From a virus: a stretch of 49,646 nt of DNA. Position 1 is the stretch's first letter, and each line of letters starts with the position of its first letter. Location: IMG/VR virus record IMGVR_UViG_3300044825_001194, positions 1 to 49,646 of that record; one strand, written 5' to 3'. Position numbers and translations under genes: made by a program. The notes beneath the pieces are model-generated. The model saw nothing but the letters and a program-made list of their open reading frames with translations. It made no database searches and had not been told where the DNA came from. Positions 5,565 to 10,607 of the stretch are shown here, piece after piece.

Positions 5565-7664
5565 ATGGCTTCTGAAATTCGTGTCAATCAAATACAAAAC
5601 CGAAGTGGATTAAGCACCGTAACATTCAGTGATACTGGTGTGGTTCTTTCAGGTATCACAACGGTCGGTATTTTGAGTGCGACAGGAAACACTGTGGTTT
5701 CTGGAAACTTAACTGTAAGTGGAACCATTACTGGAAGTGCTTCTGGGATATCTACGTTTTCTGGTGGTATCAATGTCGGTGATACGTTTTTAAGAGCAAC
5801 AAGTATTGGTATTGGAACCACAAACACGACTGGTAGAAACGCTGGTGTTTCAACGGCACAAGGAACTTTAATCTTTAACAGTGATACTGGGTCAGTTCAG
5901 GTTTATAATGGTAATGCTTGGCGTGATGTCGGTAAAGAGGCAATGAATGCCACTGGTGGTCTGATTAACGAATATGTAGAAGGTGGTAGGGTTTATAGGG
6001 CTCATATCTTCACGTCTTCTGGTTTCTTTACAGTCCTTTCTGCATCTCCTACAGAAACCGTTGACTACCTTGTGGTCGCCGGTGGCGGCGGCGGCGGTGG
6101 AGGAGGAGGAGGTCAAGGAGGTGGTGGTGCTGGTGGGTTTAAAACTGGAACTGGACTACCTGTAAGTGCAACTCCTGGTTCTTATCAAGTTACTGTTGGT
6201 GCTGGTGGTAATGGAGGTCCAATAGCACCTCCTGCTCCAGGAAATAGAGGTTCAACTGGTAGTGATTCAATATTTTCAACCATAACTTCTGCTGGCGGTG
6301 GAGGTGGTGGATATTATAGTGGTGGAGCTCCTGGAGGTCCAGGTGCTGCTGGAGGATCTGGTGGTGGTGGTGGCGATGATGCAACAACACCTGGTGTTGC
6401 TGGGTTTCCTGGTGGACCAGCAACACCATCAGGACAAGGAAATCCTGGCGGTCAAGGATCTGGATTGACTCCTGGTGGAGGATATATTGGTGCTGGCGGC
6501 GGCGGTGGTGGAGCAGGTGCCGCTGGTGGAATTGGAGGTGCTCCAAACGGAACAACACTTCCTCCCGGAAACGCTGGAGATGGAGGATCTGGAACATCAT
6601 CCGCTATTACTGGAATAACAACAACTTATGCTGGTGGCGGAGGAGGAGGTAAGTATTTAAATCCACCTGCTCCAATAGCAGGAAATGCGGGAGCAGGTGG
6701 TCCTGGTGGTGGCGCTGCTGGCGGAAAAGGTGCTGCCGGAAGTAATGCAACTTTTGCTACTGGAGGCGGTGGAGGTGGTAGTGGTCGTACTGCTGCTGTC
6801 TCAAATTATGATGGAGGCGCCGGTGGTTCCGGTATCGTAGTCGTCCGTTATGAGATCGGACAAGTCGGAGGAACTGCCAAAGCCACTGGTGGTGCGATTT
6901 CTTATACCCCAACCACGACCGTTCATACCTTCTATTCATCAGGAACCTTTACGGTCACTAATCCTGCTTTGACTTCTGCCAATGTTTTAATTGTTGGTGG
7001 TGGCGGAGGAGGAGGATCGTTCCCCGGTAACGGTGCTGGCGGCGGTGGAGCTGGTGGATTATTAGAAGGTTCAATACCTTTAAGCACAAGTCCTGGTAAC
7101 TATGTTATTACTGTTGGTTCTGGTGGACCAATGGGAAATCCTAGTGGAAATGGAATTTCTGGATCAAATTCATCTTTACAAAATCCAAATATTGGAACTG
7201 CTACTGCTACTGGTGGAGGTGGTGGTTCTGGCGCTAATGGTGCTGGGCTTTCTGGTGGTAGTGGTGGTGGTGCCGGTGGAAATAATTTAACAAATGCGTC
7301 TGGAACACAAGCACCATTTAACTATTCAGTTGGAACCACAGCAGGAACTTTATTTGGTTTTGGTAATCCAGGTGGTACTGCAAGTCCTGGTGGTTCTGGA
7401 GGTGGCGGTGGTGGTGCAGGTGGCGCAGGAAATAATGGAACAGCACCAGTTAATCCTGGACTAGGAGGAGTAGGAAGAGTTAATACTTATAGTGGTCAGG
7501 CACTAATTTATGCTGCTGGTGGTTCTTCTAATGGAGGTTTTACACCAGGAGTAAATTTAGTACCAGCTGCAGCAAATACTGGAAATGGTGGTGATGGTAA
7601 AGGAAATCCAGGTCTTGGTGGTTCCGGTGGTTCCGGTATCGTCATCATCGCTTACCCATCATAA
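5565..7664 (+). CDS. Glycine-rich adhesin-like tail fibre protein, two domains
   Basis: The protein has 699 residues and starts MASEIRVNQIQNRSG. A fibre module comes first (VSGNLTVSGTITGS, GGINVGDTFLRATSIGIG, TTGRNAGVSTAQG). Glycine-rich domain 1 begins at VDYLVVAGGGGG and ends GGSGIVVVRY. Domain 2 begins at ANVLIVGGGGGGG and ends GGSGIVIIAYPS. The final 50 bases, with the following late motif, nearly repeat the ends of the genes at 2 and 3436. Segments between the conserved glycine blocks vary strongly among paralogues, as expected for loops that contact the host. It is followed by a terminator and a homing-endonuclease gene. Confidence 0.85.
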   Translation: MASEIRVNQIQNRSGLSTVTFSDTGVVLSGITTVGILSATGNTVVSGNLTVSGTITGSASGISTFSGGINVGDTFLRATSIGIGTTNTTGRNAGVSTAQGTLIFNSDTGSVQVYNGNAWRDVGKEAMNATGGLINEYVEGGRVYRAHIFTSSGFFTVLSASPTETVDYLVVAGGGGGGGGGGGQGGGGAGGFKTGTGLPVSATPGSYQVTVGAGGNGGPIAPPAPGNRGSTGSDSIFSTITSAGGGGGGYYSGGAPGGPGAAGGSGGGGGDDATTPGVAGFPGGPATPSGQGNPGGQGSGLTPGGGYIGAGGGGGGAGAAGGIGGAPNGTTLPPGNAGDGGSGTSSAITGITTTYAGGGGGGKYLNPPAPIAGNAGAGGPGGGAAGGKGAAGSNATFATGGGGGGSGRTAAVSNYDGGAGGSGIVVVRYEIGQVGGTAKATGGAISYTPTTTVHTFYSSGTFTVTNPALTSANVLIVGGGGGGGSFPGNGAGGGGAGGLLEGSIPLSTSPGNYVITVGSGGPMGNPSGNGISGSNSSLQNPNIGTATATGGGGGSGANGAGLSGGSGGGAGGNNLTNASGTQAPFNYSVGTTAGTLFGFGNPGGTASPGGSGGGGGGAGGAGNNGTAPVNPGLGGVGRVNTYSGQALIYAAGGSSNGGFTPGVNLVPAAANTGNGGDGKGNPGLGGSGGSGIVIIAYPS

Positions 7665-7667
7665 ATA
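7660..7667 (+). promoter_or_regulatory. Late promoter motif CATAAATA
   Basis: The motif overlaps the stop of the glycine-rich gene at 5565. Any transcript from it would soon meet the terminator at 7698. Confidence 0.4.
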
Positions 7668-7697
7668 ACAATACCTGTTGAACCGCAATTCGCAGGA

Positions 7698-7721
7698 GGA
7701 GGGTGAAATTCCCTCCTTTTT
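7698..7721 (+). terminator. Rho-independent terminator
   Basis: The stem is GGAGGG (7698-7703) with CCCTCC (7711-7716), a 7-nt loop and then a run of five T. It separates the fibre gene from the GIY-YIG gene. Confidence 0.8.
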
Positions 7722-7723
7722 AA

Positions 7724-7731
7724 TATAAATA
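7724..7731 (+). promoter_or_regulatory. Late promoter TATAAATA for the GIY-YIG gene
   Basis: This is an exact T4 late consensus directly after the terminator. The expected transcription start falls just upstream of, or within, the right arm of the inverted repeat. The ATG at 7735 would then be unusable, which supports the start at 7756. Confidence 0.65.
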
Positions 7732-7755
7732 CATATGCGGTTCAATAGAGTAGAA

Positions 7756-8382
7756 ATGTATTACATTTATTCCTACTTACGGGAAGATAATAGTCCCTAT
7801 TATATTGGGAAAGGTAAGGAACAAAGAGCATATACAAAAGGTCGTAATGAAGTCCGACCACCAAAAGATAAAAGTCGGGTCAGAATACTTAAAGATAATC
7901 TAACCGAACAAGAAGCGTTTGAGGTAGAGAAACTTTATATTCTTATGTTTGGTAGAAAAGATAATGGAACCGGAATATTAAGAAACAAGACGGATGGTGG
8001 TGAAGGTCCTTCTGGAAGAATTGATAGTGAAGAAACAAGAAGAAGAAAAAGTCAGTCTCTTACTGGAAGAAAAATTCGTAAAGAGACTGGTGAAAAAATT
8101 AGTAGAGTTTTAAGAGCAAAAAATATGAAGCATAGTGAAGAACATAAAAAATATTTGAGTGAGAAGTTAAAGGGTAAAAAACCAACCGAATATAATATTT
8201 TAGTCAGTAAGTCAAAAGCAAAACCTCATAAAATAACTTTTAGAAATGGTGAAAGTATTGTGGTGAATAATATTATGGATTGGTGTAAAGAAAATGGATA
8301 CTTACACAGTGGTGTTTATGGAGTAAAAAGGCGGGTTAGAAACTTTCATAGGGACATCATTGCCGTAGAACTTGCGGTTTGA
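7756..8382 (+). CDS. GIY-YIG homing endonuclease with NUMOD3 motifs
   Basis: The preferred start is the ATG at 7756 (208 residues), because the late promoter lies on top of an earlier ATG at 7735. The N-terminus MYYIYSYLRE ... YYIGKG is the GIY-YIG nuclease core. Next come NUMOD3-type DNA-binding repeats (SEETRRRKSQSLTGRK, KETGEKISR, HSEEHKKYLSEKLKGKK). A C-terminal segment NGESIVVNNIMDWCKENG resembles the end of the HNH protein at 9870 (GELITINNLTKFCDENN). It is a free-standing selfish endonuclease that would cut a cognate site in phages lacking it. It is inserted between a fibre gene and an oxygenase gene. The site it cuts cannot be seen here. Confidence 0.85.
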   Translation: MYYIYSYLREDNSPYYIGKGKEQRAYTKGRNEVRPPKDKSRVRILKDNLTEQEAFEVEKLYILMFGRKDNGTGILRNKTDGGEGPSGRIDSEETRRRKSQSLTGRKIRKETGEKISRVLRAKNMKHSEEHKKYLSEKLKGKKPTEYNILVSKSKAKPHKITFRNGESIVVNNIMDWCKENGYLHSGVYGVKRRVRNFHRDIIAVELAV

Positions 8383-9057: not shown

Positions 9058-9768
9058 ATGAGTAAAGAATATAAGTCCACAGGTGGAGTCTATGAGGAAG
9101 GGTATCAGCGTTGTGCGATGCCCCCCAGAAAAATGTCTAAGAATGAGTCCTTTGAGAAGAATGGATACTTATTCATTCCAGGTCTCATTGCCGACCCACA
9201 AAACTTGAAGGTTGATGTGCCGACTGAAAGAGGGCAGATAACTTATTATAATAACAGAATGGACAAGTATGATTACTGTCCCGATGAGAAGCAAGTCAAT
9301 GGTTCACTTGCCCGTTATAATATTCCAACCTATCGTGAACTACATTTTCTGGTCAAGAAAGAAATAGAGAAGCGTCTTGAAATGGACCTCCACCCAACTT
9401 ATTTTTATGACCGTTTTTATTTTGTTGGTCAACAGTTGAAGCGCCATAGTGACCGTCCTGCTTGTGAGGTCAGTGTGACGCTTCAAATCAGTTCTAATCA
9501 TCCTAATGATCCTTGGCCCATTTGGTTTGAGCGTCCTGATGGTAGCGAGTCTTTTGTGCTAATGAACGATGGTGATGCTGCCGTTTATAAAGGATGTGAA
9601 AGAGAGCACTGGCGTGACCCACTTCCTTCACGATACAATAAGGCACAAAGGTTATGGAGAAAGGTGAGGAGGTTGCCTGATGATACTTACCACCACCAAA
9701 TATTTTTACATTATGTAAATGCCAACGGACCATTCGTACATTGTAGTTTTGATGCAGTTCGTCCTTAA
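9058..9768 (+). CDS. 2OG-Fe(II) oxygenase-like protein
   Basis: The protein has 236 residues and starts 3 nt after the previous stop, so the two genes are probably co-translated. A double-stranded beta-helix core is suggested by H130-x-D132 in LKRHSDRP, the strand EVSVTLQISS, GDAAVYKGCEREHW (candidate distal H184) and the closing strand HQIFLHYVNANGP. This arrangement is common in marine phage and bacterial oxygenases. Residues 191-210 (SRYNKAQRLWRKVRR region) form a basic insert before the last strand. The substrate is unknown; one possibility is fibre proteins of the same cluster. Confidence 0.75.
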   Translation: MSKEYKSTGGVYEEGYQRCAMPPRKMSKNESFEKNGYLFIPGLIADPQNLKVDVPTERGQITYYNNRMDKYDYCPDEKQVNGSLARYNIPTYRELHFLVKKEIEKRLEMDLHPTYFYDRFYFVGQQLKRHSDRPACEVSVTLQISSNHPNDPWPIWFERPDGSESFVLMNDGDAAVYKGCEREHWRDPLPSRYNKAQRLWRKVRRLPDDTYHHQIFLHYVNANGPFVHCSFDAVRP

Positions 9769-9774
9769 TAAATA
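9767..9774 (+). promoter_or_regulatory. Late promoter motif AATAAATA
   Basis: The motif overlaps the stop of the second oxygenase gene and is quickly followed by a terminator. Confidence 0.4.
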
Positions 9775-9806
9775 CCTGTGCCTGACTGGTTGGCGCTTTT
9801 CAGGTG

Positions 9807-9834
9807 GAGAAGGAGCAGAAATGCTCCTTTTCTC
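9807..9834 (+). terminator. Rho-independent terminator
   Basis: The stem is AAGGAGCA (9810-9817) with TGCTCCTT (9822-9829), closed by a GAAA loop, extended by flanking GAGA/TCTC and followed by T-rich sequence. It ends the oxygenase unit. Confidence 0.8.
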
Positions 9835-9835
9835 A

Positions 9836-9843
9836 TATAAATA
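9836..9843 (+). promoter_or_regulatory. Late promoter TATAAATA for the HNH gene
   Basis: Exact late consensus immediately after the terminator and 26 nt before the ATG at 9870. Confidence 0.65.
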
Positions 9844-9869
9844 CTTAAGCCAACCAGTTTAAGAGCAGT

Positions 9870-10607
9870 ATGAACTATTTAAAAGTTTATTGTAACCTCA
9901 TAAGAAAGGCACAACAGCGTCAAGTTGTGGAAGGTTACACAGAAAAACATCACATTTTTCCAGTAAGTATCTTTGGAAAGAATAATAAAATTGTTGTATT
10001 GACTGGTAGGGAGCATTATATCGCTCATATTTTATTGGAAAAAGTTTATTTAAAAAGATATGGTTTGAGCGACCAAAGAACATATAAAATGATATGCGCT
10101 CATATGATGATGGGTGGAAGAGATGTATATTGTAACTCTCATCTATATGAGGCATCAAGACAAAGATTAAGTGAAAGTTTAATGGGACATCCTGTAAGTG
10201 AAGAAACTAGGGCAAAAATAAGTTATTATAGTAGCAACCGTAGTGAAGAAACTTTAAGAAAAATTGGGGAAGCAAGTAAGGGTAGAAAGCATACAGAAGA
10301 ATGTAAAAAATACATAAGTCAAATATTAAAAGGTCGCAAAAAAAGTGAAGAAACTAGAAGAAAAATGAGTGAGTCCTGGAAAGGTCGCCCAAGTCCTCTT
10401 CGTGGTAGAGTTATGCCCGAAGGACATAAAAGAAAAATAGGTGACTCAAACGCTAAAACTTATCAACTTTTAAATCCGGAGGGAGAACTTATAACTATTA
10501 ATAACTTAACCAAGTTTTGTGATGAAAATAATATGGATAGGTCTGGTTTTTATAAGTTACTCAATGGAACATATAAGCAAAATAATGGTTGGAGGATTCC
10601 TCAATGA
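9870..10607 (+). CDS. HNH homing endonuclease with NUMOD3 repeats
   Basis: The protein has 245 residues. The HNH core is EKHHIFP (H27, H28), KNNK and TGREHYIAH (H49, H53). NUMOD3-type DNA-binding repeats fill about residues 105-195 (VSEETRAKIS, HTEECKKYISQILKGR, KSEETRRKMSESWKGR). The C-terminal domain NPEGELITINNLTKF is shared with the GIY-YIG protein at 7756. So two different nuclease cores are joined to the same DNA-binding tail. AAGAG upstream serves as a weak ribosome site. The last codons carry the ribosome site of the next oxygenase gene, whose ATG overlaps this TGA. Confidence 0.85.
   Translation: MNYLKVYCNLIRKAQQRQVVEGYTEKHHIFPVSIFGKNNKIVVLTGREHYIAHILLEKVYLKRYGLSDQRTYKMICAHMMMGGRDVYCNSHLYEASRQRLSESLMGHPVSEETRAKISYYSSNRSEETLRKIGEASKGRKHTEECKKYISQILKGRKKSEETRRKMSESWKGRPSPLRGRVMPEGHKRKIGDSNAKTYQLLNPEGELITINNLTKFCDENNMDRSGFYKLLNGTYKQNNGWRIPQ

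Follow-up and report, generated by a model that had tools for sequence, protein, structure and literature searches.

The window analysed here is the 49,646-base fragment of IMG/VR virus record IMGVR_UViG_3300044825_001194, which derives from a T4-like phage related to cyanophages. Inserted among its late structural genes, both on the plus strand, are two genes for homing endonucleases: a GIY-YIG/NUMOD3 gene at 7756–8382 (phrog_314 homing endonuclease, E = 2.5e-14) and a MobE-like HNH/NUMOD3 gene at 9870–10607 (phrog_655 homing endonuclease, E = 7.3e-33). In the GIY-YIG gene, an in-frame ATG at 7735 would fall upstream of the predicted start of the late transcript (7737). At a related locus (L244), another GIY-YIG-type gene, whose simple leader resembles a promoter-in-hairpin, lies upstream of a relative of the window gene at 9058–9768; the insertion of this gene beside the same neighbour as the window HNH gene suggests an insertion hot spot.

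Each of the two genes is preceded by a compound element, again on the plus strand. In copy 1, a late-type promoter hexamer with its preceding base (ATAAATA, 7661–7667; hereafter P1) overlaps the stop of the tail-fibre gene. It is followed by hairpin A (7674–7696), which is supported by sequence, fold and stem covariation and in which CCTG (7674–7677) pairs with CAGG (7693–7696) around a loop that holds the arm TTGAACCGCA (7678–7687). A terminator-like hairpin with a T-tract (7697–7721), recognised from sequence and fold, and the late promoter TATAAATA (7724–7731; P2) then lead to the complementary arm TGCGGTTCAA (7736–7745) and a TAG (ending at 7748), which together form the predicted 5′ end of the GIY-YIG mRNA. 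In copy 2, ATAAATA (9768–9774) lies at the stop of the upstream gene, and hairpin A (9780–9805; stem GCCTGA/TCAGGT) comprises CCTG (9781–9784), the loop arm ACTGGTTGGC (9785–9794), GCTTTT and CAGG (9801–9804). A terminator-like hairpin at about 9807–9834, likewise identified from sequence and fold, precedes P2 (TATAAATA, 9836–9843), the bases CTTAA and the arm GCCAACCAGT (9849–9858), with the predicted +1 at 9849 and the ATG of the gene at 9870. In both copies the arms are exact 10-bp complements flanking the late promoter. The sequence thus bears out the layout that the first-pass annotation had read for copy 2 and matched to the copy at 7674; that annotation overlooked the second late-type promoter, P1, ahead of each hairpin. 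A 10-bp arm pair occurs at only 2 of the 47 plus-strand TAAATA sites in the window, which are the two copies; the other sites reach 3–8 bp. Shuffled flanks yielded 10 bp in 1 of 2,000 and 2 of 2,000 trials.

Protein searches of IMG/VR provided 80 HNH and 80 GIY-YIG relatives, and the layout is present in nearly all of the former and a large part of the latter. From these relatives and from DNA-pattern matches we parsed 121 distinct candidate copies of this type (type 1), a few of which are chance (for example, L230, L239 and L088). Throughout the roughly 120 copies the order is P1 ([A/C]TAAATA), a hairpin with an arm in its loop, a terminator-like hairpin, P2 (TATAAATA), the complementary arm at the predicted mRNA 5′ end and the start codon, so that a pair of complementary arms flanks a late promoter upstream of the homing endonuclease gene. 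A covariance model (R1) was built from the metagenomic copies (alignment A1), with no S-SRM01 sequence included. It identified six copies in S-SRM01, an isolated phage of 240 kb, all of which precede GIY-YIG, HNH or EndoVII-like genes (one GIY-YIG assignment was made by eye only). The model also found at least three copies in Synechococcus phage B23 and one in S-B68, a phage of WH7803; the arms of every one of these copies are complementary and new. In S-SRM01, B23 and S-B68, the scan suggested in the first-pass annotation therefore turned up additional copies of the element, which stand before homing genes and have new, compensating arms. A megablast search of the region against phage records gave no match, and BLASTN searches of phage records with single elements recovered S-SRM01, a weak match in B23 and otherwise only short, mostly terminator-like matches in Staphylococcus, Listeria and Fusobacterium phages, which were taken as chance. 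Inspection by eye of relatives from Sinorhizobium, Vibrio, Aeromonas and Escherichia phages revealed no such element.

The same layout precedes GIY-YIG, HNH and EndoVII-like nucleases, and there is close similarity between the L083 copy, before a GIY-YIG gene, and the copies before HNH genes in L044 and its relatives, which points to exchange of the element between nuclease families. The earlier suggestion that the element is mobile and is used by unrelated nucleases accordingly stands, whereas the convergent origin offered alongside it is unnecessary, because near-identical elements are found before genes of both kinds, GIY-YIG and HNH, and are brought in with the gene. Two GIY-YIG-type genes, S-SRM01 QPX48079 (L238, 13015–13773) and B23 b23_0045 (L314), carry the annotation ‘translation initiation factor 2’, which is apparently wrong. 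At four loci (L225, L226, L235 and L140), type-1 elements are followed by short ORFs in which no nuclease domain was recognised; the one that was tested had NUMOD3 only, and such ORFs are perhaps decayed homing genes.

To avoid circularity, the set used for covariation (73 copies) was picked by protein homology and the two promoter hexamers, and was aligned with MAFFT without structure. Counted over 14 arm pairs, 93% of 995 cells are paired, and 220 cells, distributed over 11 of the 14 pairs, carry two-sided changes. Shuffles gave 70.5% paired and 70.8 two-sided cells, and slid registers 29–38% paired. Swapping arms between copies reduced the longest perfect stem from mostly 10–14 bp to mostly 5–6 bp; the predicted duplex energy is −22.8 kcal/mol with a copy's own arm and −14.2 kcal/mol with the arms of other copies. 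The clearest case is a pair of orthologues, window copy 1 (TTGAACCGCA/TGCGGTTCAA) versus L083/L084 (TTTGACCGCA/TGCGGTCAAA), which occupy the same insertion site and encode proteins that are 84% identical. In most copies the duplex is lengthened to about 14 bp by helix 1, in which CTG and the next base pair with YAG and the preceding base. Because the 5′ strand of helix 1 also builds hairpin A, the stem of which shows compensating variants (CCTGA/TCAGG, ATCTGT/ACAGAT, ACCTAT/ATAGGT, GCTTGA/TCAAGT and CTCTA/TAGAG), three strands are predicted to compete, first in a hairpin that carries the arm in its loop and then in a pseudoknot or strand exchange with the downstream arm. Both the covariation signal that had been noticed in the two window copies and the proposed hairpin whose loop pairs downstream are thus upheld in the larger set.

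The distribution of the arms bears on whether they act as RNA at all. The same arm (for example, TTAAGACGGCA) occurs with different nuclease families, and close homologues carry different arms. The inverted repeats could instead work at the DNA level, either as an operator through which the nuclease represses itself or in the movement of the element; I-TevI does bind an operator over its own late promoter (PMC2988022), and the element moves with its gene. However, arms distributed in this way do not track protein specificity, and the presence of an arm-in-loop hairpin and a terminator-like hairpin points to RNA, so we regard a DNA-level role as very improbable. Cross-pairing within genomes was not significantly lower than between genomes (permutation p about 0.17–0.33), and selection for orthogonal arms inside one genome is therefore unsupported.

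In 116 of the 120 type-1 copies, P1 lies no more than 24 nt from the 5′ arm, against 0–2 of 120 in four control windows. Its hexamer follows A in 85 cases and C in 32, and in no case G or T; in S-SRM01, TAAATA sites upstream of ORFs are preceded by A (54), C (5), T (3) or G (1), and those inside ORFs mostly by T or G. The late start expected from T4 lies 5 nt after the hexamer, and a purine is located at exactly this distance from TAAATA in 73 of 73 copies, at P1 and at P2. The sequence NATAAATA is a described cyanophage late promoter (PMC2984593). Empty sites reveal where P1 comes from: relatives without the HNH gene (L242–L249) read GCAGTTCGC-TGAATGATACATCC, with no TAAATA, where the window reads GCAGTTCGTCCTTAATAAATACCTG...HNH...CTCAATGATACATCC, and the GIY-YIG empty site in L243 is also without P1. 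P1 therefore arrives with the insert and travels with the element. A pre-existing promoter of the target is ruled out by these sites, and a stop-codon cassette is disfavoured, as only A or C precedes the hexamer.

The structure between the arms needs a more cautious description. A strict terminator scan called neither window hairpin, so that of the ‘terminator’ in the first-pass annotation the hairpin and T-tract are present, and the function is a reading of them; a few type-1 copies have weak T-tracts. The read-through RNAs of the window fold with a z-score of about −6. In predictions for the start region (−15 to +3), the mean unpaired probability is 0.36 in read-through RNA and 0.62 in late RNA, but 0.52 in a chimera with its upstream part taken from another copy, which indicates that part of the predicted closure is non-specific.

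Given the layout, its covariation, the arrival of P1 with the insertion and the association with homing nucleases, we propose that the element is an RNA-based repressor cassette, mobile together with homing endonuclease genes, that acts through pairing in cis and through the P1 RNA in trans, a reading to which we assign a probability of about 0.55. For this cassette we infer promoter activity, termination and a translation block. The first 10–14 nt of the late nuclease mRNA made from P2 would be complementary to the sequence displayed in the loop of hairpin A. RNA reading in from neighbouring genes would hold both arms, and their pairing in cis would bury the region where translation starts. 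From P1, which lies 5 nt ahead of hairpin A, a separate RNA of 50–70 nt would be made that ends at the terminator-like hairpin, and the loop of this RNA could bind the P2 mRNA in trans and throttle nuclease output, such that the nuclease would be made only from P2 mRNA that escapes pairing. Repression in cis on read-through RNA is the most likely part of the model, by analogy with the homing genes of T4 and Aeh1, for which such silencing is known (PMC2988022), and arm pairing most likely prevents nuclease production except from the gene's own late promoter. The late genes around the window copies have their own late promoters, and insulation from neighbours may therefore outweigh early/late timing for these copies.

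Trans action of the P1 RNA is the least certain part. Taken as a unit, the conserved P1, hairpin A and terminator-like hairpin resemble a small RNA gene with a loop antisense to the P2 mRNA, and the short RNA perhaps also represses in trans. In its strongest form, this would mean that cyanophage homing endonucleases carry their own antisense RNA gene, the 50–70-nt loop-plus-terminator product of which pairs in trans with the nuclease mRNA at its 5′ end, forming a portable self-restraint module with a matching key for each copy that is exchanged between families. We hold this version tentatively, at somewhat less than even odds, because the lack of significant within-genome orthogonality and the negative strict terminator scan weaken a role in trans. 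The opposite effect would be activation: by covering the nuclease mRNA at its 5′ end, the upstream RNA would shield it from decay. Such protection would suit the position of the arm, at the extreme 5′ end of the late mRNA as predicted; yet the duplex fills most of the roughly 20-nt leader before the start codon, abuts the AUG in type-2 copies (below) and is expected to hinder initiation, which makes activation highly unlikely.

Other leaders share the arrangement in cis. In type 2, a GTGGGCAGCAAC/GTTGCGTAAGTCCCAC hairpin with an arm in its loop is followed by a late promoter and a complementary arm adjoining the AUG; 95.3% of pairs are kept in 38 copies, compared with 30–47% in slid registers. 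This is the same logic as in type 1 with a different hairpin. In S-SRM01, simple hairpins of 9–20 bp with TAAATA in the loop, the classic T4 form, precede EndoVII/HNH genes. Neither type-2 nor simple-hairpin copies have a consistent P1, and the common denominator is thus the cis arrangement. Such leaders, together with the precedent of T4 I-TevI and Aeh1 mobE (PMC2988022), favour control in cis alone: the arms would pair only in read-through RNA and hide the start region, P2 RNA without the first arm would be translated, and P1 would be a leftover or would supply a stop codon to the upstream gene. This account does not explain why P1 is so widely kept in type-1 copies, with fixed purine spacing and arrival with the insert; stop-codon duty leaves the restriction to A or C unexplained, and hairpin A would impede pairing in cis, yet its stem covaries. 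We therefore judge cis-only control a serious alternative, but one less probable than the repressor-cassette model.

Further features of these leaders were observed. In the type-2 alignment (A2, columns 4–9 and 38–47), an asymmetric internal loop (GGCA/GUAAGUCC) is almost unchanged and looks like a binding or tertiary-contact motif. In L090, L094 and L096, a sigma70-like TTGAC-N17/18-TATTAT, absent in other type-2 copies, lies just before GGGCAGC, and transcription from it would begin at the type-2 hairpin. A third leader type, at the GIY-YIG starts of L116–L162 (for example, L146, L121, L117 and L162), consists of one compact hairpin, GUAGnUCRCGG..CCC-AnCUAC-UCUAA, placed right after TAAATA at the predicted mRNA 5′ end and followed by AGGAG and ATG; it had no Rfam match.

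If the repressor-cassette model is correct, selfish nuclease genes bring with them a standard, portable RNA cassette for their control; it insulates them from transcription of the neighbour at their landing site and retains its pairing as its sequence changes. The covariance model and dozens of natural covariants provide material for testing self-restraint of homing genes. The element is also an annotation marker, as every gene that follows a match of the model in S-SRM01 is of the homing endonuclease type, and at least one of these genes is misannotated.

A search of Rfam release 15 with the window and ten loci yielded no family, only sub-threshold, chance-level matches. Among known systems, the c4 antisense RNA of phages P1 and P7 is a short RNA encoded just upstream on the same strand and complementary to the leader of the gene it represses; it arises by processing of a shared transcript and regulates an antirepressor. 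The cassette likewise has, upstream of the target leader and on its strand, a short stretch complementary to it, but it has a separate late-type promoter and a homing nuclease, and its action in trans is putative. c4 is listed in PMC12197685, as is CfrI of cyanophage S-PM2, an RNA of about 225 nt antisense to psbA and a nuclease gene (PMC2984593, PMC12197685). CfrI, too, is linked to a cyanophage homing endonuclease gene; unlike the cassette, it is not described with covarying arms around a late promoter (PMC2984593, PMC12197685). The closest parallel is the late promoter within a structure that sequesters the ribosome-binding site, known for T4 I-TevI, I-TevII, I-TevIII and segB and for Aeh1 mobE (reviewed in PMC2988022). 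The first-pass annotation knew of no described element of this form; our literature search found the principle of a late promoter in a homing-gene structure already described and did not find the compound form. Shared with T4 and Aeh1 are the homing endonuclease genes, the late promoter between complementary arms and, as predicted here, a structure possible only in read-through RNA. Whereas the T4 and Aeh1 structures are local hairpins, the arms of type-1 copies do not form a single local hairpin: the loop of a separate hairpin, itself covarying, holds the 5′ arm, and a terminator-like hairpin separates this arm from its partner. The cassette also has an additional late-type promoter ahead of it, and covariation of its arms extends across many families. 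Taken together, the principle is that of T4 and Aeh1; the compound form, with its loop arm, terminator and own upstream promoter, is new, as are its spread and mobility.
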